Shown here in pieces: positions 16,305-50,011 of a stretch of DNA of 51,236 bases. Every line of letters starts with the position of its first letter. The first letter of the stretch is position 1. Source of the stretch: Methanosarcinales archaeon (GTDB lineage Archaea; Halobacteriota; Syntropharchaeia; Alkanophagales; Methanospirareceae); the NCBI GenBank assembly GCA_030611585.1, contig JAUWPM010000003.1:1-51236 (forward strand). The letters run 5' to 3'. A program made the translations under genes and the position numbers. The notes beneath the pieces are model-generated. The model was not told the origin of the DNA. It ran no database searches and saw nothing but the letters and a program-made list of their open reading frames with translations.

Positions 16305-16620
16305 GTGCGGGCACGCTCTCGGTCGGCGCCTTCGCCGTCAACCAGGCCCTCAAGGTCTTTCTCCGCATCGCTATCCTCCGAGCGCCAGCGTTCACAGTGA
16401 GTCTGCTCCCTTCCGGGCCTAAACCGGTATCTGTGACAAAGGCATGGCAACAGGCCCTCCAGCCAGCCACCATACCACCGTCAACCCCGCAGGGCGATGC
16501 TTCTTCGTCCAACCTTGAGCTGAAATTGACAGCTATGACGTCTTCCTCAAGCTTCGCCTCTCGCATATCGGCGATTTCGAGTTACAAAGGACGCCTAACC
16601 CTCCAGGCTAGCCCGCACAG
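16305..16620 (-). ncRNA. Archaeal SRP (7S) RNA
   Basis: About 316 nt on the minus strand. The 5' end TGTGCGGGCTAGCC pairs with the 3' end GCCCGCACA (helix 1 closing an archaeal 7S RNA). Near the 5' end the small-domain pattern GTCCTTTGTAACTCGAAATC and GCCGATATGCG matches archaeal 7S RNAs. The S-domain carries CCCGGAAGGGAGCAGAC, the universally conserved SRP54-binding helix 8 loop. It is the RNA scaffold of the signal recognition particle (SRP19, SRP54). ORFs overlapping it in the track (16174, 16235, 16276, 16397) are artefacts. Ends are placed from the terminal helix and are accurate to a few bases. Confidence 0.93.
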
Positions 16621-30983: not shown

Positions 30984-31241
30984 TCAAGGTGAACGCCCAA
31001 CGCCCGCATTGCAGAAAACCATTATTTTATACCTGTCTATATGGTCTCTAATCCATTCTACTGCTTCTTTCATCTGTTCTGAAGGTATGGGTTGCATATC
31101 AACGATGGGAACTTTTTGATAAAGGCGGTTTGTTTCAATATCCTTCTCCTTCGCCACATTTAATAGCGCTGTGATCTCAGAAGGTGGTTTTAACGCATCT
31201 TCATGACTACCAATAGCCAGGTTGTGTAGGATGAATTTCAT
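30984..31241 (-). pseudogene. Dual-specificity-phosphatase-like fragment truncated after its P-loop
   Basis: 85 residues from the ATG at 31241, whose ATGA overlaps the stop of the upstream debranching-enzyme gene (the track start at 31271 is less likely). FILHNLAIGSHEDAL starts a DUSP-type fold and VFCNAGVGRSP is the C-x5-R phosphatase loop. Immediately after it comes TGA, so the roughly 50 C-terminal residues (the helices that pack on the P-loop) are missing. No continuation exists in the other frames before the convergent galT-like stop 10 bases away. Archaeal and plant relatives act on phosphorylated glucans, so a phosphoglucan role would fit, but this copy is probably inactive. A sequencing error is less likely because no downstream homology remains. 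Confidence 0.65.
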
Positions 31242-33319
31242 ATTCCTGCCTCCAAAAAAGGGTCCACCCACTGCGACCAGAACTGAACCGGGTTCTTAAC
31301 CGGCGTCATTTCTCCATTATCCGGGCTGAACAGCTCGCTATTGTAAAACACAAAGCCTTCGTTCATTTGATGCTCTAAATTACTCCTCAGTAACCCTTCC
31401 ACCGTTTCTTTTTCAATTTCTCCCGCGGCTCGCAGAATTCTTATCAGATAAGGCGTATCTCTCGGCCAGACCACCGCCTCATGGTATTCCTCATCGCCGT
31501 AATATATCCTTTTCGGGGACTTCTTTACCAATATCCCAAATGGTAAGCCATTCTTTTCCACCAGCAAATTCTTCTTCACTCCTTTGATGAAATCCTTCAA
31601 CTCGTGGTGAGAAAAGACATTTTCATCCAGCAGCAAAGAGAATGCGATTACAGCGGGTGAACCGAGCGTCTTATCCTTTTTACCATCCATCGTTACGATA
31701 TTGTATAAAATATTCTCTTCAGCATCCCAGAATACTTTTTTGAAGTTTCTAATCGCTTTTTCTAATAATGTGGAGAACCCCTCCTCCTTGTTCTTCTTTT
31801 CAGGGTTAAAAGAAGACATGTTTACACATGACCTCAGCATTTTTATCCACTGCGCATTTATCTCAGGCAAGAAATACTTCGGCTTGTTCAGCTCGTCTTC
31901 GTCTCGTGCATCACACCAGGAATCAGGGATTCTTACCGAAACTTTCACTTTTTTCCCTTTTGTTTCCACGTCTCGCTTCGTATCGGTCCACGAATGCCAG
32001 GGAACAACCGATAACAAACCGTTTTCGCGCAGAACCGGCGCGCCATTTATTTTATTCAAATCATTTCTCAAAAAACGAGAGATGGTGAACTCAGCCCTTT
32101 CTAAAATCGCGTCTGTAAAACCTTCGTCCTTTTTACGCTTGAAAAACTCACCCGCGGCGATAAATGCCAGCATGGTTGCATCTGCATTGTTATAATCTAA
32201 TTCCTCGCCCTTCCTCTCCGGGAATCTATTTGGTATCCTTCCGTACTCATCCTGAAAATCGAAGGAGCGTAGTATTATTTCCTGTATCCTTTCGGCATGC
32301 CCAATGCGAAGTAAAGTCTCGATGTTGTTTATAATCCCTTCAAACATGTCTCTGAACCAGGGTGTTCGAAACCAGAAATCTCCGGCTTCATAGAAGAATT
32401 TTTTGTCAACATACATTCCAAATTTGGAAAGCCCGAGTGCTCTGAACGCAATTTCTTGTTTAGTCCCCCGAATTAATTCGGGGGTCTCAATTCCGAGCGA
32501 TTTCACTATTTCTTCCGCTCTCTTTTCTTCTTCACTCTCATCTTTCAACCAATTTTTCCCTTTTTCATTCAGCCACTCGAGTTGTGCTTCTGAATTGCCG
32601 CACGATATCACGAGCAGAGCTGTTGATGTATTCTCCATGGGAATCTCCAGCTCACCTACCGATACGGGATTCCTCATTTCTCCTTTGAAAACCACACCGC
32701 TCTCTGTTTCTTCTCTGAATCCCAAGCCGAGTTTATACCACCATTCAATTTTCTTCTTCTGTGTTCTAACATCGCATTCGTTTACCGTTCTAATCGAGAT
32801 GCATTTCTCATCTCTCCAGATAAGCATACCATCGTTTAGAGTCTTGCAAGAGTGTCTTTTAGGGGCGGACCCTTCGTACATGTGCCTTATATCAACTATC
32901 GGCTCGATTACAACTGAAGATGCGTTACTTTCAAGCGAAACGCAAGCAGTGATGCCGTTTTGCATTGCTCCACTATTCATCAAATAGTAACTGGTCGTGA
33001 GTTTTAAGCGCTCTGCTTCATTTTCGTAATAGTAATTCATCCTCCATGGCGAAACGTTTACGTTCTTTGCAGAAAGCTCAACATATTCTCCCTCCTTCTT
33101 AACGCCCACTGCTATCCCGTCAAGGAAATGGAAATTCTCTCCTTCTATCAACACGGATAAACCTTCATAGGGGTAATCTCGGTTAGGTATAATTTTGTTT
33201 CCAAGAGGAACAGAGAAAACCGACTGAGACCACGAAGCCCGGGGTCTTTTTATAATGGCATGCCGAGTTCGTGCAGGATTTTGGCTCTCTACCGGAAGGA
33301 GATCAATGCTTAAGTTCAT
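31238..33319 (-). CDS. Glycogen debranching enzyme-type amylo-alpha-1,6-glucosidase
   Basis: 693 residues. The N-terminal beta-sandwich (1-270) is followed by an (alpha/alpha)6 catalytic barrel. Motifs: FWFRTPWFRDMFEGI (the W-x-RD-x-F block of the GDE/GH133 family), EYGRIPNRFP, NNADATMLAF, and EYHEAVVWPRDTPYLIRI. It would hydrolyse alpha-1,6 branches of glycogen-like polymers. It overlaps the GH15-type gene by 17 bases and the phosphatase fragment by 4, so it is the centre of an operon from GH57 (35784) downward. No signal peptide. Confidence 0.88.
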   Translation of the reverse strand: MNLSIDLLPVESQNPARTRHAIIKRPRASWSQSVFSVPLGNKIIPNRDYPYEGLSVLIEGENFHFLDGIAVGVKKEGEYVELSAKNVNVSPWRMNYYYENEAERLKLTTSYYLMNSGAMQNGITACVSLESNASSVVIEPIVDIRHMYEGSAPKRHSCKTLNDGMLIWRDEKCISIRTVNECDVRTQKKKIEWWYKLGLGFREETESGVVFKGEMRNPVSVGELEIPMENTSTALLVISCGNSEAQLEWLNEKGKNWLKDESEEEKRAEEIVKSLGIETPELIRGTKQEIAFRALGLSKFGMYVDKKFFYEAGDFWFRTPWFRDMFEGIINNIETLLRIGHAERIQEIILRSFDFQDEYGRIPNRFPERKGEELDYNNADATMLAFIAAGEFFKRKKDEGFTDAILERAEFTISRFLRNDLNKINGAPVLRENGLLSVVPWHSWTDTKRDVETKGKKVKVSVRIPDSWCDARDEDELNKPKYFLPEINAQWIKMLRSCVNMSSFNPEKKNKEEGFSTLLEKAIRNFKKVFWDAEENILYNIVTMDGKKDKTLGSPAVIAFSLLLDENVFSHHELKDFIKGVKKNLLVEKNGLPFGILVKKSPKRIYYGDEEYHEAVVWPRDTPYLIRILRAAGEIEKETVEGLLRSNLEHQMNEGFVFYNSELFSPDNGEMTPVKNPVQFWSQWVDPFLEAGI

Positions 33320-34427
33320 GCTTTACAAAAAGCTTTCCTTTTTCTAAATAATAGTTCGAGATAGCATACATAGCATGAGCCCAAACGAGCGGACAAACGG
33401 ATTTTTGCAACTCGTTTTCAAATATCTGCTCAGGAATGTACGGGCTCTCTAGTCGGTTCAAAACCCATTCGTGGTATCTCCCTGCCTTTTCCTGTTCCCC
33501 TCTCATTGAGTAATAAATAGCCATCCAGAAATTTAGCAGAGGCCATGCACCCGCCCCCTTGCGTCTCAACTTGCCATCTTGCGTCCACCCGTCATAAAAA
33601 TCTTTCTCGTATCGACGAACACCACCATATTCTACTATCTTCTTTTCCATTGCGTTTACCGTATTCACCATTCGCTGCTCGTCTGATTTGCATACTTCAA
33701 ACGGATATACCAACCCAAGTAAGGAAGCATCAACAGTATAGTCACTTATCTTACCAAATGTCCTCAAGAAATACCCTCTTTTCGTATCATAACCTTTAAT
33801 AATCATCGCTTCCATTTCTTTTGCACATCTCAGCCATCTCTTATTTTCGCTCCGGTTTTTTATTTCTACCATCGCGTCTGCGCATCTAAGCCCTCTCACA
33901 CAAGCAGCCAGGGAATATAGATGATTATCTTCAAGGTCGGGAAACGTGCATCGCTCTTCCCAAAGGTCGTATGTTTGCACGGCAAAATGATCCCTATGCC
34001 AAAATTTACAGATTCCATCCGCAGCTTTCACTATTAATTCTTTGAACTCAATAGCATCCTCTATTCTTTGTTGATAGGAGTAGTGGTGCCAGACAGCCCA
34101 TAATAATGTTCCCGTTTGGTCTGGCTGGAATTGTACGCCAGCTTTCGCTCCGTTTGTATGATACCTCTGATAGAAAACACCATCCCGGTCAAACCCTTCA
34201 GCCCTTGCCAAACACCACTGGAAAAAACTAGTCTGGATTTTAATGTCCAGGATGTCAGCCGCTACACAGGCAAATGAGGCATCTCTCACCCAGACGTAGC
34301 GATAAGGCGAAACATCTTTAGGATAATATCTCTTATCTGTATTAGCAGCAACTATCGTGCCGTTTTCCACCGCAGCATCTTTAATTATTCTTTTCGTGCT
34401 TTCTATTAAGTCTTCTTTTTTGATCAT
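33303..34427 (-). CDS. GH15 glucoamylase-type glycoside hydrolase
   Basis: 374 residues, a catalytic (alpha/alpha)6 barrel without the N-terminal domain of longer bacterial forms. PYRYVWVRDASFA (RD-x-F block), QPDQTGTLLWAVWHHY, TYDLWEERCTF with the general acid Glu157/158, and SPYIPEQIFENE with the catalytic-base Glu are present. It removes glucose from non-reducing ends or acts on short oligosaccharides; the trehalase-like GH15 subgroup is an alternative. It overlaps the downstream debranching gene. Start codon ATG at 34427 lacks a clear SD. Confidence 0.87.
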   Translation of the reverse strand: MIKKEDLIESTKRIIKDAAVENGTIVAANTDKRYYPKDVSPYRYVWVRDASFACVAADILDIKIQTSFFQWCLARAEGFDRDGVFYQRYHTNGAKAGVQFQPDQTGTLLWAVWHHYSYQQRIEDAIEFKELIVKAADGICKFWHRDHFAVQTYDLWEERCTFPDLEDNHLYSLAACVRGLRCADAMVEIKNRSENKRWLRCAKEMEAMIIKGYDTKRGYFLRTFGKISDYTVDASLLGLVYPFEVCKSDEQRMVNTVNAMEKKIVEYGGVRRYEKDFYDGWTQDGKLRRKGAGAWPLLNFWMAIYYSMRGEQEKAGRYHEWVLNRLESPYIPEQIFENELQKSVCPLVWAHAMYAISNYYLEKGKLFVKHELKH

Positions 34428-34465
34428 TTTCGCTTGATGGGACTAAAACGTGAATTGAAAACATT

Positions 34466-34597
34466 TTAGAATAACCTCCTCTGTTCAGCAATGAGCGGGT
34501 TTTTTTCATCAGACCAAATATCCCTCAGATTTGGTGTATGCCCATAATAGTCATAATATTTCATAATATCATCTGCTGATCTAAAATGATTTTTCAC
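34466..34597 (-). CDS. Micro-ORF coupled to GH57 stop (43 aa)
   Basis: Not in the track. GTG at 34597 overlaps the TGA of the GH57 gene (GTGA), and 43 codons follow with credible soluble composition (MKYYDYYGHTPNLRDIW, IAEQRRLF). It fills most of the gap between the GH57 and GH15 genes. The last codons AGGAGG would double as the ribosome-binding site for the next gene. No family recognised. It could be a real small subunit or leader, or the remnant of a longer one. Confidence 0.45.
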   Translation of the reverse strand: MKNHFRSADDIMKYYDYYGHTPNLRDIWSDEKNPLIAEQRRLF

Positions 34598-35784
34598 CCA
34601 TTGTTGTTACCTTTATTTTCTTTAATATTAATCCTTTTCATTAACCTCTTAGCTTCTTTCGTATCCTCATACACTCTACGAACCCAAGAGTCTCCCCAGA
34701 AGAAGTTACAACTAGTTTCCGCTCTCAATATTCGCTCCTCTATGTTATCCTGCAAATCTTCTCCCAGCTTCCGAGATTTTTTCAACTCATGGAATCTTTT
34801 GCTGACACTCCAAATCTCTTCTAAACCTTTCTTTTGTGTCTCTGAGCCCTGCCATTGGCTGAAATCATATCCACTCGTGTTGGCTACGTTCCATGCACCA
34901 GTTTGAACATGGACACAGCTTTCCGGCGGATTTTCTTTTATATACTCGCTTATCGTAATGGGCTTTATGTCAGTCGTACCACTTCTCACTTTCTCCATGT
35001 AAGGAGCGAAGAAATACCCCCAGAAACCTGATTCCTCATGCATCTGCCTGAACCACCCGCCATTCTCGCCGTCAGACCATGTTGTAACAAGGCAATTTCC
35101 TTCGCATTTCTCTGTTTTATGCATGACCTCTTTCTCAAACCATTCGGGATTAAATCCACTCTCCTGGGCGTTACTGATGTCCCTGTCCCGGGGAATTACG
35201 ATTATCTCTGAGCCTTCATATGCCGCTATATGGGGTTTGTAGGTTATCTCCTCTCTCTTCAAATCACCTTTAAGTGGTTTGACGTGAACGCTGTCAACAA
35301 CCACGTAATCGAAACCTGTCTTCTGAAGCACAGGAATCATCTCCATAGAAAAGCCCATCTCCGGGGGCCAGAAGCCTTTCGCATGAAATCCGAGTTTTTT
35401 CGCTTGCTGCTTCCATCTTTTTATCTGTGGCTCCCAATCTTCCATAGGAATCAAAGGGAAAAGAGGATGATAGTAGCCCATTCCAAGGAATTCTATTCCT
35501 TTCACCCCTGGATATTCAAACAACATCCTTCTCAGGTCAATCGTCTTGGAAAACGCTTTTACGAGGTTTTCATTCATAAGCTGATCCAGTAATATCCCGG
35601 AAAATCCGAGATGCACCTTTGCAATACCCTCATACCGTTTCACATACCTCAACGGACGTTCATAGCATAACATGATCTGCTTCGCTTCCCATTCGTTTTC
35701 CCTGAGCAGTGATTCAATATTCCCTGGAGGCTGGTGCATGTGCAAGCCTAAGGCATGATATATATTTGCGTGCATAATCATCAT
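34594..35784 (-). CDS. Short GH57 glycoside hydrolase
   Basis: 396 residues, the compact GH57 form. HMHQPP (about 15-20) is the first motif, FWPPEMGFS carries the probable nucleophile Glu142, and TTWSDGENGGW the acid/base Asp238. The family acts on alpha-1,4-glucans (alpha-amylase, amylopullulanase, 4-alpha-glucanotransferase). The track start includes MMI before MHANIYHALGLH; the ATG at codon 4 is equally likely. First gene of the operon GH57 - micro-ORF - GH15 - debranching enzyme - phosphatase fragment, a complete set for mobilising a glycogen-like store. Confidence 0.88.
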   Translation of the reverse strand: MMIMHANIYHALGLHMHQPPGNIESLLRENEWEAKQIMLCYERPLRYVKRYEGIAKVHLGFSGILLDQLMNENLVKAFSKTIDLRRMLFEYPGVKGIEFLGMGYYHPLFPLIPMEDWEPQIKRWKQQAKKLGFHAKGFWPPEMGFSMEMIPVLQKTGFDYVVVDSVHVKPLKGDLKREEITYKPHIAAYEGSEIIVIPRDRDISNAQESGFNPEWFEKEVMHKTEKCEGNCLVTTWSDGENGGWFRQMHEESGFWGYFFAPYMEKVRSGTTDIKPITISEYIKENPPESCVHVQTGAWNVANTSGYDFSQWQGSETQKKGLEEIWSVSKRFHELKKSRKLGEDLQDNIEERILRAETSCNFFWGDSWVRRVYEDTKEAKRLMKRINIKENKGNNNG

Positions 35785-36279
35785 ATGTACAATAGAATCG
35801 AATTAAGTTTTTTTTGCTGCGGACTCATACCCAGGAGCAGTAGCCATGACTGCCCCATTTTATCATCCATTATCGCCATTTCTCATCGTCACCTCGCTTT
35901 TATAACCTAAGAATAGTTGTACGTGCTGCAATAAAAGCTTTTCGGTTTTATTTCGTTTGGAATCGAAACTCATAAATTTTTAGGATGTGTTTTCACAATT
36001 CGTGCTAGATATGGCTATAAAGTGCTGAAGTGGTGAGAAGAAGAATTGCTTTTTATATCTGTGCACGAAATATTATCTGTCGCTGGGTAATGGTTGGACA
36101 GCCTCTTGACAAAGGAAAATGCTGCTGGAAGCAAAAGATGCCGAAGAGTTGGCGAGAAGGGGTGCGAGGGTGTGGTAATGAGATGAGGATAAAAAAAATT
36201 GGAGCTATCCCTCCTTTTTTACCATTGAAAATAGATTTCTTTTAATCTGTCAAACAAAGGCTTACCCTCAATTCCGCCT
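35785..36279. other. About 495-base gap without a supported gene
   Basis: AT-rich. The first 40 bases serve as the GH57 promoter region. The 71-aa frame at 36030-36245 is unconvincing (basic, no motif). A short window reading MLLEAKDAEELARRGARVW (36117-36176) looks like a piece of a longer protein in a different frame, so the stretch may hold gene debris belonging with the helicase remnant that follows. Confidence 0.4.
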
Positions 36280-38023: not shown

Positions 38024-38773
38024 CTACGACACTTGAGGCGAAACGGAACGTTTCCGATTGATAATGCTCGCCGCGATTATACCTACCTCATAGAAGATCA
38101 CCAGCGGAAACCCGACAACGATCTGGCTCACGACGTCCGGCGGTGTAACGATCGCCGCGAGGGCGAACATTATCACGATTATGTATCGCCGGTACTCCTT
38201 CAGAGCGCTTATTTGGACGATTCCCGATTGAACGGCAAGAACGATAAAGATAGGAACTTCAAACGCAACCCCCAGTATGAGCGTTAGTATTATGACGAAC
38301 GATATAAATTCGTATATGGAGTACGTGGCGGAAACTCCCACTTCTAATGACATACTGTAGAGATATTTCAGGACAAAAGGCAGCATGAGGAAGTAAGAGT
38401 AGCACATACCGAGGACGAATAGAGAAACCGCGGAACCCAGCAATAGAATGAGGTGTGATTTCTTCAGGGGATTCGTTATTCCAAACCGTACCTTCAAGGT
38501 CTTATACACATAATGGCATACAAGCGGGAGCGCAAGTATTACGCCTATGACCATAGCTAACTTTACTTTTAGCATGATCACCTCCACAGGCGAGAGATAG
38601 ATGAGCGTTGCACCTTCGGGGAGAAGGTCCTGTTTTATCCTAGATAACACGGGATCTAAAAGTTGAAATGAAACCAAAAAACCAGCAAGTATAATCACGA
38701 TAATGGGTATGAGCTTTTTCTTTAGCGCCTCCGTTATATATCCCAACTCCTCGAAAATAGCCGCCATCTTCAA
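38024..38773 (-). CDS. tatC: TatC-family protein 1 (lacks N-terminal receptor motifs)
   Basis: 249 residues, six hydrophobic helices, TatC family. It keeps GVAFEVPIF with Glu172 (E. coli Glu170 position), YSYFLMLPFVLKYL and TPPDVVSQ with Asp213 (E. coli Asp211 position). It lacks the N-terminal HLxELRxR (only ELGYITEALKKK) and the first-cytoplasmic-loop F-x2-PxLYxxER motif (KTLKVRFGITNPLKK), both of which bind the twin-arginine signal. The start codon is only 18 bases from that of the divergent tatC, so the transcripts or starts must overlap; the ATG at 38767 is an alternative. Confidence 0.9.
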   Translation of the reverse strand: MKMAAIFEELGYITEALKKKLIPIIVIILAGFLVSFQLLDPVLSRIKQDLLPEGATLIYLSPVEVIMLKVKLAMVIGVILALPLVCHYVYKTLKVRFGITNPLKKSHLILLLGSAVSLFVLGMCYSYFLMLPFVLKYLYSMSLEVGVSATYSIYEFISFVIILTLILGVAFEVPIFIVLAVQSGIVQISALKEYRRYIIVIMFALAAIVTPPDVVSQIVVGFPLVIFYEVGIIAASIINRKRSVSPQVS

Positions 38774-38791
38774 TTACCACTAAAATTATTT

Positions 38792-39610
38792 ATGAATATA
38801 GAGGAGATAAAAGCTAAAGTTGAAACTGAAGTGAACGAGAAAGCAAACGAGAAAATGCCGAGAACGGACGATGCAGCCCTGAGCGTAGATGGCCCGATAA
38901 GGGATGAAGAGATTCCGATATTAGAGCATCTTGTTGAACTCCGGAAGAGGGCTATCGTTGTCTTAATCCCGTTCGGTATTGCCGCGCTGGCAATGTTCCC
39001 TTTTTCAAACATTTTCCTTCGCTACTTATTATTCCATAATCTCTTCCCTGAAGAAATGGCTATGTTTGTTTATAATCCGCTGGAATGGATGAGTGTGAGG
39101 CTTTTATTCTGCTTCGTATTCGCTCTTTCTGTTACGATACCATTAATAATATATGAGACTTTCGCTTTCATACGACCCGGGTTGTACCCCTCAGAGCGCA
39201 AATTTTTCCTGATGGTTGTCATACCTTCGATCTGCTGCTATGGCGTCGGTACGGTCTTCGCCTATTACTTCGTCCTTCCTATGATCTTCCGTTATCTCAT
39301 CGGCTATTCCGGAGAGGTAGCACAGGTTGCACTTTCTGCAAAACGGATCTTTTCTATCATCCTTTACACCGGTGTTGGATTCGGGCTGATTTTTCAAATC
39401 CCCTTCGTAATGACCTTAGCGGTGAAGCTGAAAATAGTCACGCATTCGTGGCTCAGGGATAAGAGAGTGATAATCTACGGGCTGATAATAGGCATTGCTT
39501 TCTTCGTCATCGCGGACCCCACGGGCATTTCAATGATCATGGCGTTGATGGCAATAGCACTATTCGAACTTGGACTGTTGCTAACGCGATATATCGGGCG
39601 TAAACGATAA
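38792..39610 (+). CDS. tatC: TatC-family protein 2 (lacks C-terminal motifs)
   Basis: 272 residues, TatC family, with a charged N-terminal extension of about 40 residues. It has the signal-peptide receptor motifs EHLVELRKR (45-53; Glu49) and FIRPGLYPSER (126-136; Glu136), equivalent to E. coli Glu15 and Glu103. In helix 4 the conserved FExP is FQIP (Gln202), and the usual TPPDxxSQ is ADPTGISM. This is the mirror image of the losses in the divergent TatC at 38024. The two probably form one working receptor-channel unit. Upstream of tatA in the same direction. Start could lie further in, for example ATG 38855. Confidence 0.9.
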   Translation: MNIEEIKAKVETEVNEKANEKMPRTDDAALSVDGPIRDEEIPILEHLVELRKRAIVVLIPFGIAALAMFPFSNIFLRYLLFHNLFPEEMAMFVYNPLEWMSVRLLFCFVFALSVTIPLIIYETFAFIRPGLYPSERKFFLMVVIPSICCYGVGTVFAYYFVLPMIFRYLIGYSGEVAQVALSAKRIFSIILYTGVGFGLIFQIPFVMTLAVKLKIVTHSWLRDKRVIIYGLIIGIAFFVIADPTGISMIMALMAIALFELGLLLTRYIGRKR

Positions 39611-39656: not shown

Positions 39657-40022
39657 ATGTTTTTTGGAATGATGTTTTTTGGAATGCCCGGCGGAGGCGA
39701 ATTGATAGTAATAGGGATATTGATAATAGTCCTGTTATTCGGCGCAGCGAAGGTGCCACAGCTTGCAAGGTCATTTGGGCAGGCAATGGGGGAGTTCAAA
39801 AAGGCGAAACGCGAATCGGAACTGAACCTCAAAAATCTTGAGGATTCCATAACGGGCGACGAGAAAGGAGCGATACCGAAGACGACGGCAAGCGTGGAGA
39901 CGAAGACCGAAAACGTCAACATAAAAGAAGTAGCCGCGTATATGGGCATAGATACCGCGGGGAAGACCGAAGAGGAGTTAAAAGCGGAAGTGCAGGCAAA
40001 GATGAAATCCTCTACTAAGTAG
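39657..40022 (+). CDS. tatA: TatA-type twin-arginine translocase subunit
   Basis: 121 residues. The transmembrane helix (ELIVIGILIIVLLFGAAKVPQLA, about 15-38) is followed by the hinge FG and amphipathic helix ARSFGQAMGEFKKAKRESE. This is the family signature, with FG-x2-K-x-P-x-L. The C-terminal tail is polar, Lys/Glu-rich and ends in a second predicted helix (NIKEVAAYMGIDTAGKTEEEL) of unknown role. It polymerises to form the conduit for folded proteins recruited by TatC. Confidence 0.92.
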   Translation: MFFGMMFFGMPGGGELIVIGILIIVLLFGAAKVPQLARSFGQAMGEFKKAKRESELNLKNLEDSITGDEKGAIPKTTASVETKTENVNIKEVAAYMGIDTAGKTEEELKAEVQAKMKSSTK

Positions 40023-40550: not shown

Positions 40551-41537
40551 ATGACTACCGGTGGTGGAATTGGAAGGGTCGTTGTTGCACCTGCGCACTT
40601 ACACGCGGGTAACATGGACTTAACCGGAGACCTTGGACGGCTCTACGGCACTGCGGGTTTCACTATTGATTACCCCCGAACGGTTATAGAAGCAGTTAAA
40701 TCGGACAAGATCACTGTTAGGGGAGAAGACAGAGAGAACGCAGAGAGATATGCGAGTGCGTTCATGGAGCGATTCAAGGTCGGGGGTGGGATCGAGATAA
40801 ACGTCAAGGAAACCATTCCGGAGCATCTCGGCATGGGATCTCAGACCGCACTCGCGTTATCTATCGGCAGTGCGATTTCAGAACTTTATAACCGCTCTAT
40901 TGCTGTGGAAGAGATGGCTATTGCGCTTGGAAGGTCAGACATCGTTGCGCTTGGTTTTAACTCGTTCCAAACCGGAGGGTTCATCGTTGACGGCGGATAC
41001 AAAATAGAAGACAAATGCAGGCGGGTTCCACCCTGCATATTCAGGTATCCGATACCGGAGGACTGGCTATTCGTCGTTTGCATACCGAAAAAGCCGATAC
41101 CAGCGATACTGAAGATAAAAGAGCACGAGGAAGAGATACTTAACAATCTGAAGCCAATGCCGGAGCAGACGTCCGACCGTCTCTCAAGAATAATGCTCAT
41201 GCAGGTTATGCCCTCTATTATGGAGCACGACATAAAGACCTTCGGTAAATACATAACGGCGTTCAACAGCCGCCTTGGCGGTTTCTGGGAAGAGTTCCAG
41301 GAAGGCAACACTTACTGCGACCCCATCGTGGAGGCGGGAGTGAAAATACTGTTAGAGAACGGAGCTTATGGCGCGTGCCAAACCTGCTGGGGTCCAACGT
41401 TCTACGGGCTCGTGGACGACGGGGACACCGCGCGAAAGCTCGTTGCGAAACTTGAGGATCTTTTAGATAGCGAAGGCGGAGGGGAAGTATTTTATACCCC
41501 AGGCAACAATCAAGGAGCGAGAATAATAAAATGGTAA
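40551..41537 (+). CDS. mptG: Beta-ribofuranosylaminobenzene 5'-phosphate (beta-RFAP) synthase
   Basis: 328 residues, GHMP-kinase fold but not a kinase. It condenses 4-hydroxybenzoate (or p-aminobenzoate) with PRPP, releasing CO2 and PPi, the first committed step of methanopterin synthesis. VVAPAHLHAGNMDLTGDLGRLYG is the N-terminal family signature, ETIPEHLGMGSQTALALSIG the glycine-rich loop, and YGACQTCWGPTFYGLVDD the C-terminal block. Normal length. Its stop overlaps the start of the first DUF1464 gene (7 bases). A tetrahydromethanopterin-dependent C1 metabolism is implied. Confidence 0.9.
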   Translation: MTTGGGIGRVVVAPAHLHAGNMDLTGDLGRLYGTAGFTIDYPRTVIEAVKSDKITVRGEDRENAERYASAFMERFKVGGGIEINVKETIPEHLGMGSQTALALSIGSAISELYNRSIAVEEMAIALGRSDIVALGFNSFQTGGFIVDGGYKIEDKCRRVPPCIFRYPIPEDWLFVVCIPKKPIPAILKIKEHEEEILNNLKPMPEQTSDRLSRIMLMQVMPSIMEHDIKTFGKYITAFNSRLGGFWEEFQEGNTYCDPIVEAGVKILLENGAYGACQTCWGPTFYGLVDDGDTARKLVAKLEDLLDSEGGGEVFYTPGNNQGARIIKW

Positions 41538-42682
41538 CCGCAATAGGAATAGACCCCGGAACGAAGAGCATGGACGTTTTCGGCTTTGATGACGAGACCG
41601 AGGAGGTGATTATGGACCTCGCAATACCCCGGATTGAGGTAACGAAGAATCCTGCGATCGTGCTGGATGCGATACGTGAATTAGGCATGGAGATAGACGT
41701 AATCGTCGGTCCAAGCGGCTACGGGCTGCCAATGGTAAAAGCTTCGGAAGCTGCGGATGCAGAGATCAATGCGGCAACGTTCATAACGAAAGCCGACATT
41801 GCGAGAAGGCTGAACATCGTCGGGTTACGGGAGTTGATGTTCCTAATGAAGAAGTCGAACCTAAACGTCTGGTTTCCGCCTGGAGTCATCCATCTACCGA
41901 CCGTTCCAGAATACCGGAAGATAAACAAAATAGACCTGGGGACCGCAGACAAGGTCTTCACCGCAGTTTCCGGGATAAAGGATCAAGCGGAGAAATACGG
42001 GATCGAGTACTCAGGAACGTCGTTCATCGTGCTTGAGATTGGCTTCGGCTACACGGCTGCGATGGGAATAGAAAATGGTAAGATAGTTGACGGCGTCGGC
42101 GGAACCATGGGCGGAGTCGGGTACATGGGCATGGGTGCGGTAGACGGAGAACTCGCATACGCCCTGGCGAATACTGTAACGGACTTTTCAAAGATGATGC
42201 TCTTCGATGGCGGTGCAGCCGCTATTTCACAGATAAACCCACAGAAGACTTCTATTGAGGAATTCGTTAGCCGTGCACGGCGGCAAGACTCAGAGCAGCA
42301 TGTGAAGCTTGCTTATTTCGCTATGCTGGAATCAATAATCAAGGATACGTATCTGATGCTTTCTTCCGTCAGGAAGCCAAAGGAGATATTGCTTAGCGGT
42401 CGGTTCACGAGGATCGAGCCCTTCGTTCAGGACGTAACCGCAGTACTGCGGGATCATCTCCAGGGGCTCGGAATCCAAGCAGGAATAAGAACCCTGACAA
42501 GGACTGGCGGTGAGGTAAAAGAAGCTGCGGAGGGTGCGGCACTCATTGCAAATGGGATAGCAGGCGGGAAATACGAGAACCTGATCGAAACTATGGAGCT
42601 GCGGAAAAGCTCAGGCGGGGTGTTCAGCCACGTCTACATGAATAAGGAAGTACGGGGACGAATGGAGGAGACCTTTAGCTGA
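41531..42682 (+). CDS. DUF1464 family protein (ASKHA-fold, predicted kinase), copy 1
   Basis: 383 residues. AIGIDPGTKSMDVFGFDDET is the phosphate-1 motif of actin-like (ASKHA) ATPases, and the family (COG2441) has been annotated as predicted butyrate kinase-like. IVGPSGYGLP, FPPGVIHLPTVPEYRKINKIDLGTADK, and VGGTMGGVGYMGMGAVDGELAY (adenine/phosphate loops) are conserved with copy 2. Substrate unknown. It overlaps the beta-RFAP synthase gene, so a role linked to methanopterin or another C1 cofactor is a reasonable guess. Confidence 0.85.
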   Translation: MVTAIGIDPGTKSMDVFGFDDETEEVIMDLAIPRIEVTKNPAIVLDAIRELGMEIDVIVGPSGYGLPMVKASEAADAEINAATFITKADIARRLNIVGLRELMFLMKKSNLNVWFPPGVIHLPTVPEYRKINKIDLGTADKVFTAVSGIKDQAEKYGIEYSGTSFIVLEIGFGYTAAMGIENGKIVDGVGGTMGGVGYMGMGAVDGELAYALANTVTDFSKMMLFDGGAAAISQINPQKTSIEEFVSRARRQDSEQHVKLAYFAMLESIIKDTYLMLSSVRKPKEILLSGRFTRIEPFVQDVTAVLRDHLQGLGIQAGIRTLTRTGGEVKEAAEGAALIANGIAGGKYENLIETMELRKSSGGVFSHVYMNKEVRGRMEETFS

Positions 42683-42702
42683 TAAAGGGGTATTCAAAAA
42701 TT

Positions 42703-43839
42703 ATGACACGAGCGGCAGGTGTTGATCCGGGCACGAAGAGCATGGACATCTGTGCGATTGAAGATGGCAAGGTGTACTATGAGAATCCACTTGATAATAT
42801 CGAATTAGCAAAAGAGCCGGAAAGGATAAACGATGCGTTACGAGAAGCGTTACCCGTGGATCTCATTACCGGACCTTCGGGTTATGGCGTGGAGCCAACG
42901 CGAATAGAGGAGATTCCGGAACGCATCTTCGAGGATTGGTATTACAATTATATCTTGCTGACAACGAAGGCGGAGATACAGAAAGGGATCGCGGACGGCG
43001 TATTTGGCGCGATACTGTACAAGAACATGACGGATTTCTCGGTCTGGATGAGACGGGAGAAGTTCCCGGTTACGTTCATCCCCGGAGTGATCGAACTGCC
43101 GACCGTGCCGTACTACCGGAAGATAAACAAGCTGGATATGGGTACTGCGGACAAGTTAGCCGTGACTGCTCTTGGGGTTCACGACCAGGCGAGACGGTTA
43201 GGGATTCCGTATTCGGACGTGTCATTCATACTCGTGGAAGTTGGCTTTGGCTACAATGCGGTTATGGGCGTAGAAGGCGGCAGAATCGTGGACGGCATTG
43301 GGGGTACGAACTTCCCGGGTATCGGGTTTTTAACCGCTTCGGCGTTGGATGGCGAATTGGTGCAGCTCGTCCGTAACTGGGAGCGAAAGGACGTATTCGA
43401 GGGTGGCGTGGTGTCCGTTACCGGCGAAATGGATCCGGAGGCGTTTGTAAACCGGAAAGACGCTAAAAACGAGATTGCATTTGACGCAATGATGGATGGC
43501 ATAAAGAAAGCGGTTGCGTCAATGAAGGTATCGGTAAATAATCCACGCGAAATTCTACTCTCTGGTAGGTGGGCGAAGCAGAACGAGATAAAGAAGGAGC
43601 TGATAACGCGGCTTTCACATCACGCGGACGTGCGTGCAGTAGGGTTCTTAGAGGGTGCGGCAAAGACGAAGGAGACTGCGCAGGGCTATGCCGTCATCGC
43701 GGACGGGTTGGCTGGCGGCGAATTCAAGCAGTTGATCGAGTGGATGAAGATAAACGAAGCTCAGGGGACTGCTCTGGATTATGTTTATCATCCAAAGTTT
43801 GAGGGCGTGCCGGAGAGGTTTGTGGGGTTTAAAGGGTAA
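42703..43839 (+). CDS. DUF1464 family protein (ASKHA-fold, predicted kinase), copy 2
   Basis: 378 residues, tandem paralogue of the preceding gene: GVDPGTKSMDICAIEDGKVY, ITGPSGYGVEP, FIPGVIELPTVPYYRKINKLDMGTADK, IGGTNFPGIGFLTASALDGELVQL. Both keep the phosphate-1 motif, so neither is an obvious dead subunit. They may work as a heterodimer or on related substrates. Gap to copy 1 is 20 bases. Last gene of the three-gene operon; the CRISPR operon starts about 140 bases later with its own TATA box. Confidence 0.85.
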   Translation: MTRAAGVDPGTKSMDICAIEDGKVYYENPLDNIELAKEPERINDALREALPVDLITGPSGYGVEPTRIEEIPERIFEDWYYNYILLTTKAEIQKGIADGVFGAILYKNMTDFSVWMRREKFPVTFIPGVIELPTVPYYRKINKLDMGTADKLAVTALGVHDQARRLGIPYSDVSFILVEVGFGYNAVMGVEGGRIVDGIGGTNFPGIGFLTASALDGELVQLVRNWERKDVFEGGVVSVTGEMDPEAFVNRKDAKNEIAFDAMMDGIKKAVASMKVSVNNPREILLSGRWAKQNEIKKELITRLSHHADVRAVGFLEGAAKTKETAQGYAVIADGLAGGEFKQLIEWMKINEAQGTALDYVYHPKFEGVPERFVGFKG

Positions 43840-43968
43840 AGTAAGGGTGGAGTGTCGTGGTATCTTAAAAAAGCGGAGCACGGTAGTTGGTTTGGTGGAG
43901 TGGGAAGAGGCGCATCAGAGCAATTTCAAATGATTTCTTTTTGTCCCAAAGCTCTCAAAAGCGATAAA

Positions 43969-43977
43969 CTTATATAG
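43969..43977 (+). promoter_or_regulatory. TATA box of the type III-A CRISPR-Cas operon
   Basis: CTTATATAG, about 33 bases before the ATG at 44010. The track's ATG at 43983 is only 6 bases from this box and would lie upstream of the transcription start, so 44010 is the better start for cas10. Confidence 0.6.
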
Positions 43978-44009
43978 TAGGAATGATCTTATGTAATGCT
44001 ACATTCCAA

Positions 44010-46442
44010 ATGGATGAGAAGATAATCCAACTTTCCGCTTTGTTACATGATATAGGTAAGTTCTGGCAGGGTGTGGGTGAAAAAGGGAAACACTCAGAAT
44101 TAAGTAGCATGTTTATTCAGGAGTACGTGCCAGAGCAGTGGCACGGGGCTGCTGGGATCGTCGCGAAGCATCATGATCCAGAAGCACGCAAGTCCGGGGA
44201 GTATAAACCTTTAAAGACGATTGTATGTGCAGATTGGCTCTCATCGGGTGAGCGGCGAGGGTTAGTAGAGGATGAAGATAAAGGCGAGCGGAAAGCGACA
44301 CCGCTGATGTCTATTTTTTCGGAGATTAACATTGGTAAAGGCACGCCTGGTCCCGCGCAGTATTATCCCATACATAAGTTGGAATTGGATAAGGAAGTTA
44401 TATTTCCCAAACCGTTAGAAGGTAAGAAAGGAGAAGATCGTTTAAAGGGGGATTATACCGGATTATGGACGGATTTCGTGAAAGAAGTGGAAAGCATAAA
44501 GGTGATAACAGATTTTGATGCGTATTTCAATACGCTTTACTATCTATTGCAGAAATATACGTGGTGTGTGCCTTCTGCGGTCTGGAAAGATGTTCCGGAT
44601 GTTTCCTTGTTTGATCATTTGAAGACGACATGTGCGATTGCAGCGTGTTTGTGCAATGCCGAGGAGCATTACCTCAACAACGTGATAAGTGGTATAGAAA
44701 AAAGTTGGAGAAAAGAAGATTTAAATGAGGAAGAGGAAAGCGCCTTAAATGATGGTAAATTCCTGCTTATAGGTGGGGATATTTCTGGCGTCCAGAATTT
44801 TATTTATGCCGTAACCTCAAAAGGAGCCGCGAAAGGTTTACGTGGCAGGTCGTTTTACCTTGAGTTGCTTACAGAAAGCACTGCCAAGTATATCTTACGT
44901 GAATTGAATTTGCCAATTGCAAATCTACTCTATTGCGGTGGTGGACATTTTTACATCCTCGCACCCAGCGTTGTAGAGAGCGATTTAGAAGGTTTAAGGA
45001 AAAGAATTGCTGAAGATTTGTTAGAGGTTCACAGTGTAGAACTATATTTAGTGCTTGATTGGCTTCTGTTATCTGCTAATGTATTTCAAAAGAGGCAGTT
45101 TGGCGATGCATGGACGGGTATAGGCAAGAAAATAGCGAAAATGAAGAAGAGGAAATTTGCAGAGATTCTGGAGAGGCATGATAGAATTTTTGGACCCATG
45201 GGCGAAGGGGGAACAAAAGAGACTTGTGATATCTGCGGTAGTGAGGAAGAAGTAATTGAGGAAGAAGATGGAAGGAGAATATGTACCTTTTGTAAAAGTT
45301 TAGAGAGTCTTGCGAAAGAGATTGGAAAGGCAAGTTATTGGATTGAAACATGGAAAACTGATATAAAAATAAGTGAAAAAGAAAAAGGTAGTTGGAAAGA
45401 AGCTATTTCTAAATTTGGTGTTGAATATGCGTTTGTGGAAAAGATGGATAATGATTTGAAGACAAGAGAAGCTGACCACATATCAGTGTATAAGCTAAAT
45501 GATACCCATTTCTCGAATGTTATTCCAGGCTATAAGGATGCGAAATCGCCAATTTCATTTGGATTTAAGTTCTTGACGAAGAATACCCCATATAAAGAAA
45601 TAAAAGATATGGAAGGAAAAGCCCACCCCACAGAGGATATAAAAGATTTTCGCGATTTAGCGAGAGATTCTGAAGGAATAAATACTTGGGCTGTATTAAG
45701 AGCTGACGTAGATAATCTTGGTAAGATATTTGCAGATGGTTTAGGTGAGGATAGAACGATTTCAAGAGTATCAAATCTGAGCGCCATGCTTTCGCTCTTC
45801 TTTATGGGCTGGATGGAGAAGATATGTGAAGATGATAAATATAGGGAGAAAGTGTATGCGATTTACTCTGGAGGGGATGACCTTTTCGTAGTTGGTGCAT
45901 GGGATAGAATGCCAGAAATAGGGAAGAATATTTATGACGATTTCGGGACTTTCACGTGCATGAATCCAAATATAACCTTATCCGTAGGTATAACGATAGC
46001 GCCGTCAGAGAAATATCCGTTGTATCAAGCTGCGGATTTGGCAGGAAAAGCATTGGATAAATCAAAGGATTTGAAAGGAAAAAATGGTGTCACGTTCTTG
46101 AATATGCCAATGAAGTGGGATATATTCAGCGGAGATATTACAGAACTCAAAGAAGATTTGAAGAAGCTTCTTAATGCCAGCGTTTCTCGTGGCTTTTTAC
46201 AAAAGTTGAATGCGATATATGGCGAATATGAAAAACAGAAGGTGGAACATGGAGAAGCTTCAGCAAAGTATGACGACCGATATGGTAGATGGCGATGGTT
46301 ATTGGCGTACGTGATAGCGAGAACAAAAGTTTCAAAAGAGGATAAGCAATTATTGAAAAAAACGGAAGTGCTCATTCGTAAAAATATTGAGTATTTACCT
46401 ATCGCAGTGCGATGGGTAGAATATTTAACGAGAAAGGAATAG
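44010..46442 (+). CDS. csm1: Type III-A CRISPR effector Cas10 (Csm1)
   Basis: 810 residues from the ATG at 44010 (MDEKIIQLSALLHDIGKF). The N-terminal HD nuclease motif has His13-Asp14, plus AKHHDPE. A first, degenerate palm domain starts around LLIGGDISGVQNFIY. A zinc finger follows (CDICGSEEEVIEEEDGRRICTFC, about 405-430). The second palm has YSGGDDLFVVG with intact GGDD (621-624), which synthesises cyclic oligoadenylates. The HD domain cuts ssDNA when target RNA is bound. The C-terminal helical D4 domain ends at VRWVEYLTRKE. Intact active sites imply both DNase and cOA signalling, fitting the CARF-HEPN gene at the end of the operon. Confidence 0.96.
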   Translation: MDEKIIQLSALLHDIGKFWQGVGEKGKHSELSSMFIQEYVPEQWHGAAGIVAKHHDPEARKSGEYKPLKTIVCADWLSSGERRGLVEDEDKGERKATPLMSIFSEINIGKGTPGPAQYYPIHKLELDKEVIFPKPLEGKKGEDRLKGDYTGLWTDFVKEVESIKVITDFDAYFNTLYYLLQKYTWCVPSAVWKDVPDVSLFDHLKTTCAIAACLCNAEEHYLNNVISGIEKSWRKEDLNEEEESALNDGKFLLIGGDISGVQNFIYAVTSKGAAKGLRGRSFYLELLTESTAKYILRELNLPIANLLYCGGGHFYILAPSVVESDLEGLRKRIAEDLLEVHSVELYLVLDWLLLSANVFQKRQFGDAWTGIGKKIAKMKKRKFAEILERHDRIFGPMGEGGTKETCDICGSEEEVIEEEDGRRICTFCKSLESLAKEIGKASYWIETWKTDIKISEKEKGSWKEAISKFGVEYAFVEKMDNDLKTREADHISVYKLNDTHFSNVIPGYKDAKSPISFGFKFLTKNTPYKEIKDMEGKAHPTEDIKDFRDLARDSEGINTWAVLRADVDNLGKIFADGLGEDRTISRVSNLSAMLSLFFMGWMEKICEDDKYREKVYAIYSGGDDLFVVGAWDRMPEIGKNIYDDFGTFTCMNPNITLSVGITIAPSEKYPLYQAADLAGKALDKSKDLKGKNGVTFLNMPMKWDIFSGDITELKEDLKKLLNASVSRGFLQKLNAIYGEYEKQKVEHGEASAKYDDRYGRWRWLLAYVIARTKVSKEDKQLLKKTEVLIRKNIEYLPIAVRWVEYLTRKE

Positions 46443-46443
46443 G

Positions 46444-46827
46444 GTGAGAAAAATGGGTGATGGAATCGTAGAGGAAATAAAAGGGGAATTGCTTTCCATA
46501 CTGGATGGCGATTCCGAAAAATTGGTGAATAACGCGAAGAAATTGGGCAGGCATTTGAGTGGAAGACTCACTACATCTCAGATAAGACGCATTTTCAGTG
46601 AAGTGAAGCAGATGGAAAACTATGACAAGAATAGGTTAAACCTGCTACGACCGAAAATGGCTTATACTGCTGCCCGACACAAGAAGACAGTGCGAGAGAT
46701 AGTAGATTTACAGGAAGTTTTGGATGAGTGTATAAAAAACACGAACAGCGAAGAGCGGTTCAAGAATTTCGGGGATTTTTTCGAGGCAATATTGGCATAT
46801 CACCGTTATTATGGGGGAAAAGAATAG
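46444..46827 (+). CDS. csm2: Csm2, small helical subunit of the Csm complex
   Basis: 127 residues, all-alpha. LGRHLSGRLTTSQIRRIFSEVKQMEN and LLRPKMAYTAARHK match the Csm2 family; several copies line the belly of the complex along the crRNA. The track start is a GTG at 46444, 1 base after the cas10 stop; the ATG at 46453 (MGDGIVEEI) is an alternative. Confidence 0.92.
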   Translation: MRKMGDGIVEEIKGELLSILDGDSEKLVNNAKKLGRHLSGRLTTSQIRRIFSEVKQMENYDKNRLNLLRPKMAYTAARHKKTVREIVDLQEVLDECIKNTNSEERFKNFGDFFEAILAYHRYYGGKE

Positions 46828-46836
46828 GAGGTAAAA

Positions 46837-47664
46837 ATGGTAGAAATAAGTCTGGAAGGAAAGATTGTGATTACAGGAAATATAAGAACAGAAACGGGTT
46901 TAAGTATTGGCGGCGCGACCGTTGGATTAGATATAGGTGGAGTGGATAATCCCGTGATAAAGAATGCAGAAGGTAAACCGTATATACCAGGGTCATCGCT
47001 AAAAGGTAAAATGCGCTCGCTTTTGGAAAAAGCAAATGGATTAGCCACAGATGATAAGCGAATATGGGTAGTGCCAAATGAAATAAGCATACACATGTGT
47101 AATGAGCCGGAGTGCGTGGTCTGCAATATATTTGGAAGGACAACAAGAAAGGAACCTTATTCATCTCCAGGTGGAGGTGCGATAAAAATAGAGAAAGAAA
47201 ACGTTACACCCACTCGTTTAATAGTGAGAGATGCTGTGCTTTCGGAAGATAGCGTAAAAAAGCTGAGGGGGCTGAAGACCGACTTAGAATTTACAGAAGT
47301 GAAGTGGGAGAATGTAATAGATAGAATAACCTCGGCAGCGACTCCAAGACAGATGGAACGGGTTCCAGAAGGAGCAGAATTCAAGTTCGGGATGATATAC
47401 AATGTCTTTACGGAATCAGACAAAAGCAACTTGAGAGAAGTATTCAAAGCACTGGAGCTTCTTGAGCACGATTATCTCGGAGGAAGCGGCTCGAGGGGAT
47501 ATGGCAAGGTGAAATTTGAAGACGTGAACGTATATTGGAATTCAAAGGCTGATTATGAGAACGGAGATGTAGACACCGAGACGAAAACATCAATAAATGG
47601 CGAATACAAAACGCCTGCGAGCATAGTAAAGAATTTTGAAGCGATAAAGGAAAAAATCAAGTAG
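46837..47664 (+). CDS. csm3: Csm3, Cas7-type backbone RAMP with RNase activity
   Basis: 275 residues, RAMP fold. GLSIGGATVGLDIGGVDNPVIKN contains the Asp position that catalyses target-RNA cleavage at 6-nt intervals in characterised Csm3 proteins; YIPGSSLKGKMRSLLEK is the conserved RAMP loop; YLGGSGSRGYGKVKF is the glycine-rich C-terminal loop. CNEPECVVC could bind zinc. Normal length. GGAGG precedes the ATG. Confidence 0.95.
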   Translation: MVEISLEGKIVITGNIRTETGLSIGGATVGLDIGGVDNPVIKNAEGKPYIPGSSLKGKMRSLLEKANGLATDDKRIWVVPNEISIHMCNEPECVVCNIFGRTTRKEPYSSPGGGAIKIEKENVTPTRLIVRDAVLSEDSVKKLRGLKTDLEFTEVKWENVIDRITSAATPRQMERVPEGAEFKFGMIYNVFTESDKSNLREVFKALELLEHDYLGGSGSRGYGKVKFEDVNVYWNSKADYENGDVDTETKTSINGEYKTPASIVKNFEAIKEKIK

Positions 47665-47665
47665 C

Positions 47666-48739
47666 ATGAGAGTATGCAAACTGAAGCCAAAGGCGCATTT
47701 TCATCTTGGCGAGAAGGAGACGATTTTGGAGAAGACATCTGATTACATACATTCTGATACCTTATTCAGCGCTATTTGTAACGCATACAGATTGCTTTAC
47801 GGTAACGAAGAACTTGAGACTATGTTAGAAGGATTTATGCGGCATGAGCCACCATTTTTATTCTCTTCTGCTTTTGTGTACGCAGACGATATATTAGTGC
47901 TCCCTTTACCATTATCCGTAGACTGGGATAAATATATGGATAGAGAAGTAATAGAAGGACTAAATGCAGAGAGAAAAGAGACGGATAAGATAGACAGATT
48001 TGACCTTCTAAAAAGGTTAAAGCGGGTGAAATTTGTTTCCGAGCGTATTTTCCGGGACTTGACAAAGGATGAGCGTAGGATAAAGGAATATATTAACGAT
48101 AGGAACATCATCCAAGGCATCCTTTTTACTGATGAAGAAGTAGAAGGATTAAGAAAGCAATTTGATGTGCGAGAAAATAAGGATATAAAAATTTGGAGAG
48201 AACGAGAAGTCCCAAGGGTTGCAATAGATAGAAAAACAAATTCATCACATATTTATCATTTTGGTGAAGTATCATTTGCAACGGATTGTGGACTTTATTT
48301 CCTGATGGATTCGCGGCTGAAAGAATACGAGAAAAGAGTAGAGGCAACCATAAGAGTGCTTGGAGACGAAGGAATCGGCGGAGACCGAACTTACGGTAAA
48401 GGATTGTTTAAACCGGAATTTGACGAGATAGAAGTGAATATGGAACCAAAGAATCACTTTGTTACGCTTTCGTTATTTTATCCGCAGGAAGAGGAACTAT
48501 CCAAGCTAAAAGGCAGATACTACGAGTTGATAACCAGAGGAGGCTGGATTTACTCGATGGATGCGAAGAATCTGAGGCGTAGAACAGTGAGGATGTTCTC
48601 AGAGGGCTCGGTGTTTAGCACAGAGTCTAACTCGGGATTGTATGGCGGTTTAGCTGACGTTAAGCCTGAGGAATTTGCAGAACATGAGGTTTATAGATAT
48701 GGATATGCGTTTGCAGTACCGATGGAGGTGAGCGAATGA
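47666..48739 (+). CDS. csm4: Csm4, Cas5-type RAMP
   Basis: 357 residues. Family features: KPKAHFHLG at the start, SDTLFSAICNAYRLL, a central segment, and the glycine-rich GIGGDRTYGKGLFKP. Csm4 caps the crRNA 5' tag and bridges to Cas10. One base separates it from csm3, and its stop overlaps the csm5 start (ATGA). Confidence 0.92.
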   Translation: MRVCKLKPKAHFHLGEKETILEKTSDYIHSDTLFSAICNAYRLLYGNEELETMLEGFMRHEPPFLFSSAFVYADDILVLPLPLSVDWDKYMDREVIEGLNAERKETDKIDRFDLLKRLKRVKFVSERIFRDLTKDERRIKEYINDRNIIQGILFTDEEVEGLRKQFDVRENKDIKIWREREVPRVAIDRKTNSSHIYHFGEVSFATDCGLYFLMDSRLKEYEKRVEATIRVLGDEGIGGDRTYGKGLFKPEFDEIEVNMEPKNHFVTLSLFYPQEEELSKLKGRYYELITRGGWIYSMDAKNLRRRTVRMFSEGSVFSTESNSGLYGGLADVKPEEFAEHEVYRYGYAFAVPMEVSE

Positions 48740-50010
48740 GATATGAGTTAGAGGTGATCTCTCCGGTTCACGTAGGTAGTGGCAGGACAATAAGCCCGAT
48801 TGAGTACGTTGTAGAGGACAATTTTTATCGTGTAGATATGGACATGCTTTTTGAGGATGATAGATTTGATGCAGAGGGATTTATCGAAGATGCAAAGGGA
48901 GGAGCATTTTATCTTGGAAGATTCGCACCAGAGCTTGCGATGGAGCATGTTAGATATAGTTTAGATATTTCGAATTCTGTGAAAAATAATCTTTGTAAAT
49001 CGGTTTATCATCCAAGTGGAGAGATAAGAGAATTCATTAAGACCAAAGATTTGCCATATATTCCCGGTAGTTCAATGAAAGGTGCATTAAGAACTGCAAT
49101 GTTATGGAAAGCATTAAAAGATCCGCAAATATTCCAAGAAGCAAAAGATATCATAAGAGAACAGGGTAAAGTAAATCCAAAAAATGCGGGTGAAGGAATA
49201 GAAAAGCTTGTTTTTGGTAGAAATCCAAACTATGATTTACTAAGAGCATTACAAGTTTCTGATAGCCAAATAACAACGATGAATAACCTTGAATTATCAA
49301 AAGTAGTAATATTAAGCGATACAAGAGAGGGATATGGATGGAAGACGTTCCGAGGAAGAAGGTCATTTATAAATACCAATTATGAAGATGCCACACCTAT
49401 TTTTATCGAAGCATTGAAGCCAAGGAGTACATTGACAGGGACATTAAAGATAGATAATTGGCTTTTACGCGAAGAGGAAGAAGAGATAGCAAAAGAGCTG
49501 GAATTTAATGGCAAGCAATACTTGGTAGAAGATATTGCAAAGAATTGTAAAGAATTCGCTAAGGATTTTATTGCGGGAGAATTAGCGTTTTTGGAGCGAT
49601 ATAGAAGTGGTACGTTAAGGAAAGTGGTAGAATTCTATATGACGCTTCGAGAGGAGTTAAATAAGTTATCAGAAAATGAATTATTGCTCCCTATTTCATG
49701 GGGCTCGGGTTGGCATGGCATGACCATTGGGAACTTATTTGATGTAGAAAAGCTACGCAGAAATTTTGATTTGGGAAAGAATATCAAAAGAAGCGTTTGC
49801 AAAAAGTGCAATTCGGAATTAGTAAAAGAGAGGCCAAGTGATAGATTCTATGACTATTGCCCAAACTGCAGAAAGCACATAAGAAGAAATGAACAATATC
49901 AAAAAATAGTGAAAATGATCTGGCCGTTCCCGAAAACACGCCGATTAGTATTTGAAAATGGCAAACCGACATATCCTCTTGGGTGGGTAAAACTAAGCAT
50001 TGGAGATTGA
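48736..50010 (+). CDS. csm5: Csm5, Cas7-type RAMP at the crRNA 3' end
   Basis: 424 residues. LEVISPVHVGSGRTISPIEY is the N-terminal RAMP strand and loop typical of Csm5; YIPGSSMKGALRTAMLWKALKD is the conserved loop shared with Csm3. C-terminal CKKCNSELVKE...YCPNCRKH is a zinc-ribbon-like insertion. It terminates the backbone and helps recruit host nucleases for crRNA 3' trimming. Confidence 0.92.
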   Translation: MRYELEVISPVHVGSGRTISPIEYVVEDNFYRVDMDMLFEDDRFDAEGFIEDAKGGAFYLGRFAPELAMEHVRYSLDISNSVKNNLCKSVYHPSGEIREFIKTKDLPYIPGSSMKGALRTAMLWKALKDPQIFQEAKDIIREQGKVNPKNAGEGIEKLVFGRNPNYDLLRALQVSDSQITTMNNLELSKVVILSDTREGYGWKTFRGRRSFINTNYEDATPIFIEALKPRSTLTGTLKIDNWLLREEEEEIAKELEFNGKQYLVEDIAKNCKEFAKDFIAGELAFLERYRSGTLRKVVEFYMTLREELNKLSENELLLPISWGSGWHGMTIGNLFDVEKLRRNFDLGKNIKRSVCKKCNSELVKERPSDRFYDYCPNCRKHIRRNEQYQKIVKMIWPFPKTRRLVFENGKPTYPLGWVKLSIGD

Positions 50011-50011
50011 G

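Follow-up and report, generated by a model that had tools for sequence, protein, structure and literature searches.

Two tatC paralogues of Halobacteriota with complementary residue sets as candidate subunits of one Tat translocase core

It is debated whether the core of the Tat translocase has to be asymmetric and at how many of its three TatC sites cargo is loaded: structures from 2026 give the native E. coli core as TatA1B2C3 with one complete signal site (PMC13323110), and another 2026 model has regulation pick one site of three. The window analyzed here, a stretch of 51,236 nucleotides from an archaeon of ANME-1, a group of methane oxidisers, has a divergent pair of tatC genes, and it raises the question of whether these encode two translocases or two different parts of one. 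A sequence-only reading of the locus had proposed the latter, namely an obligate TatC heteromer with a division of labour, in which each protein has lost key residues that the other keeps.

The locus and the residues kept by each TatC

TatC-1 is encoded at 38024..38773 on the reverse strand and TatC-2 at 38792..39610 on the forward strand; by the ORF coordinates, the divergent listed starts are separated by a gap of 18 bp (38774..38791). Both ORFs were found where the sequence-only reading had placed them, and both match PF00902 over its full length, TatC-1 at 150.1 bits and TatC-2 at 145.1 bits (cut-off 25.1; model positions 4-208 and 1-205 of 208 for the two proteins). The best NCBIfam model is TIGR01912 for TatC-1 and TIGR00945, above its cut-off, for TatC-2, and the two proteins fall into separate clades of the TatC tree, referred to here as class A (TatC-1) and class B (TatC-2). 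The listed start of TatC-1 is a TTG, and the ATG two codons further in, at 38767, is the likelier start; the true start of TatC-2 may also lie further in than listed. TatC-1 is a single domain of 249 aa and not a fused double class A protein. Its AF2 model has a confident TatC fold (mean pLDDT 83.5) and matches TatC in PDB 4b4a as the best PDB hit (E 1.2e-8, TM 0.76/0.83), and for TatC-2 the fold was assigned from sequence similarity to TatCs of solved structure (E 1e-20). Downstream of tatC-2 lies tatA (39657..40022, forward strand), the sole TatA/B-type gene of the genome in a PF02416 search, whose product has a Glu at the position matching TatB E8, an equivalence read by eye. No third tatC was found in the genome (90% complete), where TatC-1 and TatC-2 are the sole TatC genes; a complete third copy was one of two observations that the sequence-only reading had named as refuting its proposal.

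The residues of each protein were assigned by alignment of TatC-1, TatC-2 and their relatives to E. coli TatC, the numbering of which is used throughout. In the 2026 E. coli structure, the twin-arginine motif is contacted by H12, E15, F94, Y100 and E103 (PMC13323110). All five are present in TatC-2 (H12, E15, F94 and E103 being H46, E49, F126 and E135 in its own numbering). TatC-1 has none of the five: positions 12, 15, 94 and 103 are occupied by I, A, T and K, respectively, and its TMH2-3 loop is longer and basic. The Glu that directly precedes position 15 in TatC-1 was considered as a displaced receptor residue and rejected as unconserved among class A relatives, and the alignment of class A sequences held no conserved acidic residue in the TMH2-3 loop. 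Thus the second contrary observation, a receptor motif that is conserved but displaced in TatC-1, was not seen in the alignment with relatives.

On the other face, TatC-1 has E at 170 and a P3 loop, TPPDVVSQ, with T208, D211 and Q215, and together with P221 it keeps the residues of the TMH5/P3/TMH6 face, as the sequence-only reading had it for Glu170 and the loop. T208 and Q215 are the residues by which the TatB helix is held in E. coli (PMC13323110), where the polar cluster is required for transport (PMC5201420) and D211A abolishes function (PMC3712464). TatC-2 has Q at 170 and ADPTGISM as its P3 loop, and the claim that it has lost these assembly motifs stands for the substitutions themselves, with two corrections. 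In E. coli, E170A stops transport and leaves the assembled state locked (PMC10092561); however, position 170 has been scored as glutamate/glutamine in a published comparison (PMC6251230), and since the two are there treated as interchangeable, the Q found at this position in 79 of the 80 class B proteins is no clear loss. Q170 also occurs in both haloarchaeal TatCo and TatCt-N, and Glu170 was accordingly dropped from the split. The P3 loop of most class B relatives reads xPDPTxxSQ, so that Q215 is retained and Asp211 is shifted by one residue because of a one-residue insertion, rather than simply lost. Among the main groups compared, loss of Q215 from class B is confined to the window's family and haloarchaea; since class B of the sister family (f5) and of Ca. 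Ethanoperedens retains it, these losses look independent. Given the inconsistency at Glu170 and the displacement of Asp211, the firm split is between the receptor face and the TMH5/P3/TMH6 face.

Distribution, ancestry and gene order of the two classes

The TatC set comprised 80 class B and 105 class A sequences from 82 genomes of the phylum and from named records, and every TatC in it could be assigned to one class or the other save the single, bacterial-like TatC of one genome (G039). Each of H12, E15, F94, Y100 and E103 is present in 75-80 of the 80 class B proteins (H12, E15 and E103 in 80/80, F94 in 79/80). In class A, H12 and E103 are kept in 0/105, F94 in 1/105 and E15 in 6/105, a difference between the classes that lies far beyond chance. 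Compared to these, the 67 mostly bacterial TatCs of a comparison set combine all of H12, E15, F94, E103, E170, D211 and Q215 in one protein, each residue being kept in 65-67 of the 67; since these sequences were drawn by a P3-loop pattern, among the matches listed, the set is biased for D211 and Q215 and unbiased for the receptor face. When the positions conserved in bacteria were counted face by face, class A kept 1/12 on the receptor face and, in its unfused form, 12/13 on the TMH5-6 face; class B kept 11/12 and 4/13, respectively (Fisher p = 2e-5 for the contrast of face and class, with positions taken as independent and haloarchaea left out). Outside the phylum, the matches listed for the single P3-loop pattern were for the most part TatCs of bacteria that carry every motif, a draw from which absence of class A there cannot be concluded. 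As judged from the alignments, the split is phylum-wide, spanning Methanosarcina, Archaeoglobus, ANME-1 and haloarchaea; the complementary pattern noticed in one locus therefore recurs in related genomes, and the earlier observation is correct and broader than first stated.

A maximum-likelihood TatC tree was computed without the motif columns. The class A clade (support 95/94), the class B clade (100/98) and the grouping of the two together (94/93) persisted, which rules out that the topology is driven by the motifs themselves, and A and B grouped apart from both bacterial TatC and the euryarchaeon SM23-78. On this tree, class A and class B are sister clades that trace back to a single early duplication within the Halobacteriota lineage. 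In the phylum of SM23-78, TatC was found in 5 of 148 genomes, one copy in each, and four of these five proteins combine E15, F94, E103, E170, D211 and Q215.

The two classes are kept together. At least two TatC domains were found in 164 of the 166 genomes that have a TatC over the cut-off and are at least 90% complete, the exceptions with one TatC being G182 and G234, and all 65 genomes with at least two TatCs that were compared hold both classes, none having two of one class only. In family f10, matched to Archaeoglobaceae, the tatC genes lie far apart or on separate contigs and both are still kept, and G114, from a family inferred to be Methanosarcinaceae-type (f8), has two complete A/B pairs. 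Linked A and B genes are divergent at 64 of 64 loci (some genomes counted twice), and wherever tatA was found beside a linked pair, it was on the class B side. At the Methanosarcina-type loci of family f8, the class B tatC is followed by two TatA-type genes, and the one that comes first has a TatB-like FGPQKLPELA motif.

The haloarchaeal genes, a comparison with which the sequence-only reading had suggested, show the same split: in the tree, TatCo groups with class B, and the fused TatCt groups with class A in each of its halves. A related genome (G146) likewise encodes a fused protein with two class A halves. TatCt-N keeps the polar cluster (SPPDPFTQ), and in TatCt-C both the polar cluster and the receptor are lost, so that the haloarchaeal set consists of three TatC domains, one with the receptor, one with the TatA face and one with neither. 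TatCt deletion mutants of H. volcanii are described as unobtainable (PMC7305310), which counts in favour of the mixed core proposed below.

A proposed mixed TatC core and its alternatives

We propose that the early duplication in the Halobacteriota lineage gave rise to class A and class B, which would then have lost complementary surfaces. Class B would be the signal receptor, with the end of TMH1 and the TMH2-3 loop binding the twin arginines, and class A would no longer bind signal peptides. The TMH5/P3/TMH6 face of class A, with T208 and Q215 from the polar cluster as well as the essential D211, would instead hold a TatA-type helix between TatC protomers. Together the two would build a mixed complex of TatA and TatC, very probably trimeric like the bacterial one, with a core perhaps of one B and two A and hence a single signal-peptide site. 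In E. coli, TatC acts as an obligate oligomer (PMC5102672), and in the TatC trimer the place between one protomer's TMH5 and its neighbour's TMH1 is taken by TatB or TatA (PMC13323110). We put the probability that TatC-1 and TatC-2 complement each other as subunits of a single Tat translocase core, an obligate heteromer and possibly A2B, at about 0.78. A division of labour between two cooperating TatCs is strongly supported, at the level of sequence, by the phylum-wide split, co-retention when the genes are unlinked, the divergent order, tatA on the B side and purifying selection on both genes (dN/dS 0.11-0.27). Physical heteromerisation and stoichiometry are what we infer from this pattern, and the role of each face would be as in E. 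coli; the literature searched yielded no biochemistry or genetics on the window's TatC proteins. The original proposal of a heteromer is thus supported in part, by the conserved, co-retained and selected pair, and is weaker in its use of Glu170, in a simple loss of Asp211 and in the putative physical complex.

Three other explanations of the pair have to be weighed. The absence of receptor motifs from TatC-1 might mark it as a decaying duplicate heading for loss, and this we find hardly credible: class A ORFs are intact across the phylum, sequence conservation is strong throughout the class, dN/dS for TatC-1 is 0.13-0.27, the fold is confident and the clade is old, which together effectively refute a pseudogene. 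The two proteins might also form separate homomeric translocases with different cargo, like TatCd and TatCy of Bacillus subtilis, given that Bacilli with multiple TatC isoforms use each of them for particular substrates (PMC3827258) and that class B of many relatives retains Q215 and an Asp in the P3 loop. Two independent pathways would show a receptor site and a tatA for each TatC, and class A has neither: it is devoid of any residue known to bind twin arginines, no tatA lies beside it, and the window's genome has a single TatA. With Q215 also lost from class B in the window's family, separate translocases appear very unlikely.

An arrangement that is unlikely, though less so, has a class B homotrimer as the whole core and class A as an accessory TatC-derived subunit outside it, for instance one on which the TatA oligomer docks or one that stands in for TatB. 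It would fit the position of tatA next to class B, the retention of the TatA/B-binding face in class A and the description of archaea as being without TatB (PMC2910488). In bacteria, however, the TatA site is formed by two neighbouring TatC protomers (PMC13323110), and a protein that retains this face is therefore expected within the core; moreover, the polar-cluster Q is lost from class B in the window's family and in haloarchaea. Against the heteromer itself count the Q215 and neighbouring Asp retained by class B in Methanosarcina and others, where B alone might still function, the single-TatC genomes G182 and G234 and the lone bacterial-like TatC of G039, and co-loss in the window's family could be explained by adjacency alone. 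G039 is from the same taxonomic class as the window's host; its TatC scores closest to the bacterial type, keeps F94, E103 and E170, and is possibly a gene transfer or a contaminating contig.

For a mixed core of A and B, the stoichiometry comes solely from the haloarchaeal fusion. With three haloarchaeal TatC domains and a bacterial TatC trimer, one B and two A is the simplest reading, and by this analogy the two A copies would later have been fused into TatCt. The wider claim, that Halobacteriota at large use an obligate A2B trimer with exactly one receptor per core, that the asymmetry is hard-wired in TatC and not in TatA/TatB occupancy, and that haloarchaea later fused two A into TatCt, is tentative, and we would give it slightly less than even odds.

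Relation to known Tat systems

The closest parallel is in haloarchaea, where TatCo and TatCt show the same classes and the same divergent order; the class A protein of the window differs from TatCt in being an unfused single domain, encoded by a gene of its own, that has Glu at 170. For Halobacterium, Brueser and Sanders (2026) proposed an asymmetric complex in which TatC1 (the TatCo of that genus) and the fused double TatC2 (its TatCt) together have one functional binding site (PMC13186574), which agrees with one functional receptor per complex; their proposal covers Halobacterium only and includes neither a residue-level split nor a phylum-wide pair. The bacterial TatBC/TatABC core (E. coli, PDB 9dzz and 9e01; PMC13323110) shares the TatC fold and the receptor and TatA/B-binding residues, which here are divided over two proteins, whereas one bacterial TatC does everything and the asymmetry there comes from TatA1B2 occupancy. 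Bacillus also has two TatC paralogues per cell, but each isoform directs its own substrates (PMC3827258), unlike the present pair, in which one paralogue is without signal-binding residues.

The NCBIfam models TIGR01912 (TatC-Arch) and TIGR00945 (tatC) already separate class A from class B, and both are labelled as equivalogs for plain TatC with no mention of one class being without the receptor. Many archaeal proteins are thus annotated as plain TatC that have no known residues for recognising Tat cargo. TIGR01912, TatC-Arch or 'archaeal TatC' was not found in print in the literature searched, and a search covering few subscription papers returned no description of the pair in unfused form, of how its residues complement each other or of its spread through the phylum. 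With the receptor and the TatA-binding face on different genes, each site can be mutated alone in tractable archaea.

An ANME-1-type tatC pair is also carried by DYFG01000018.1, a record titled Candidatus Nitrosotalea, and the organism name on this record looks wrong. Elsewhere in the window, a full-length Rfam match to the archaeal SRP RNA (203.8 bits) lies at 16305-16618 on the reverse strand, and a glucan-enzyme cluster with an amylo-alpha-1,6-glucosidase (GDE_C), a GH15 and a GH57 protein at 31241-35802, also on the reverse strand. Shortly downstream of tatA, on the forward strand, tandem DUF1464 proteins of unknown function (41531-42682 and 42679-43836) sit beside a GHMP-kinase-type gene. 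They are followed on the same strand by a type III-A CRISPR (csm) operon at 43968-51235, with Cas10/Csm1, two RAMP proteins, Csm4 and, reaching the window end, a HEPN protein of the Csm6 type.
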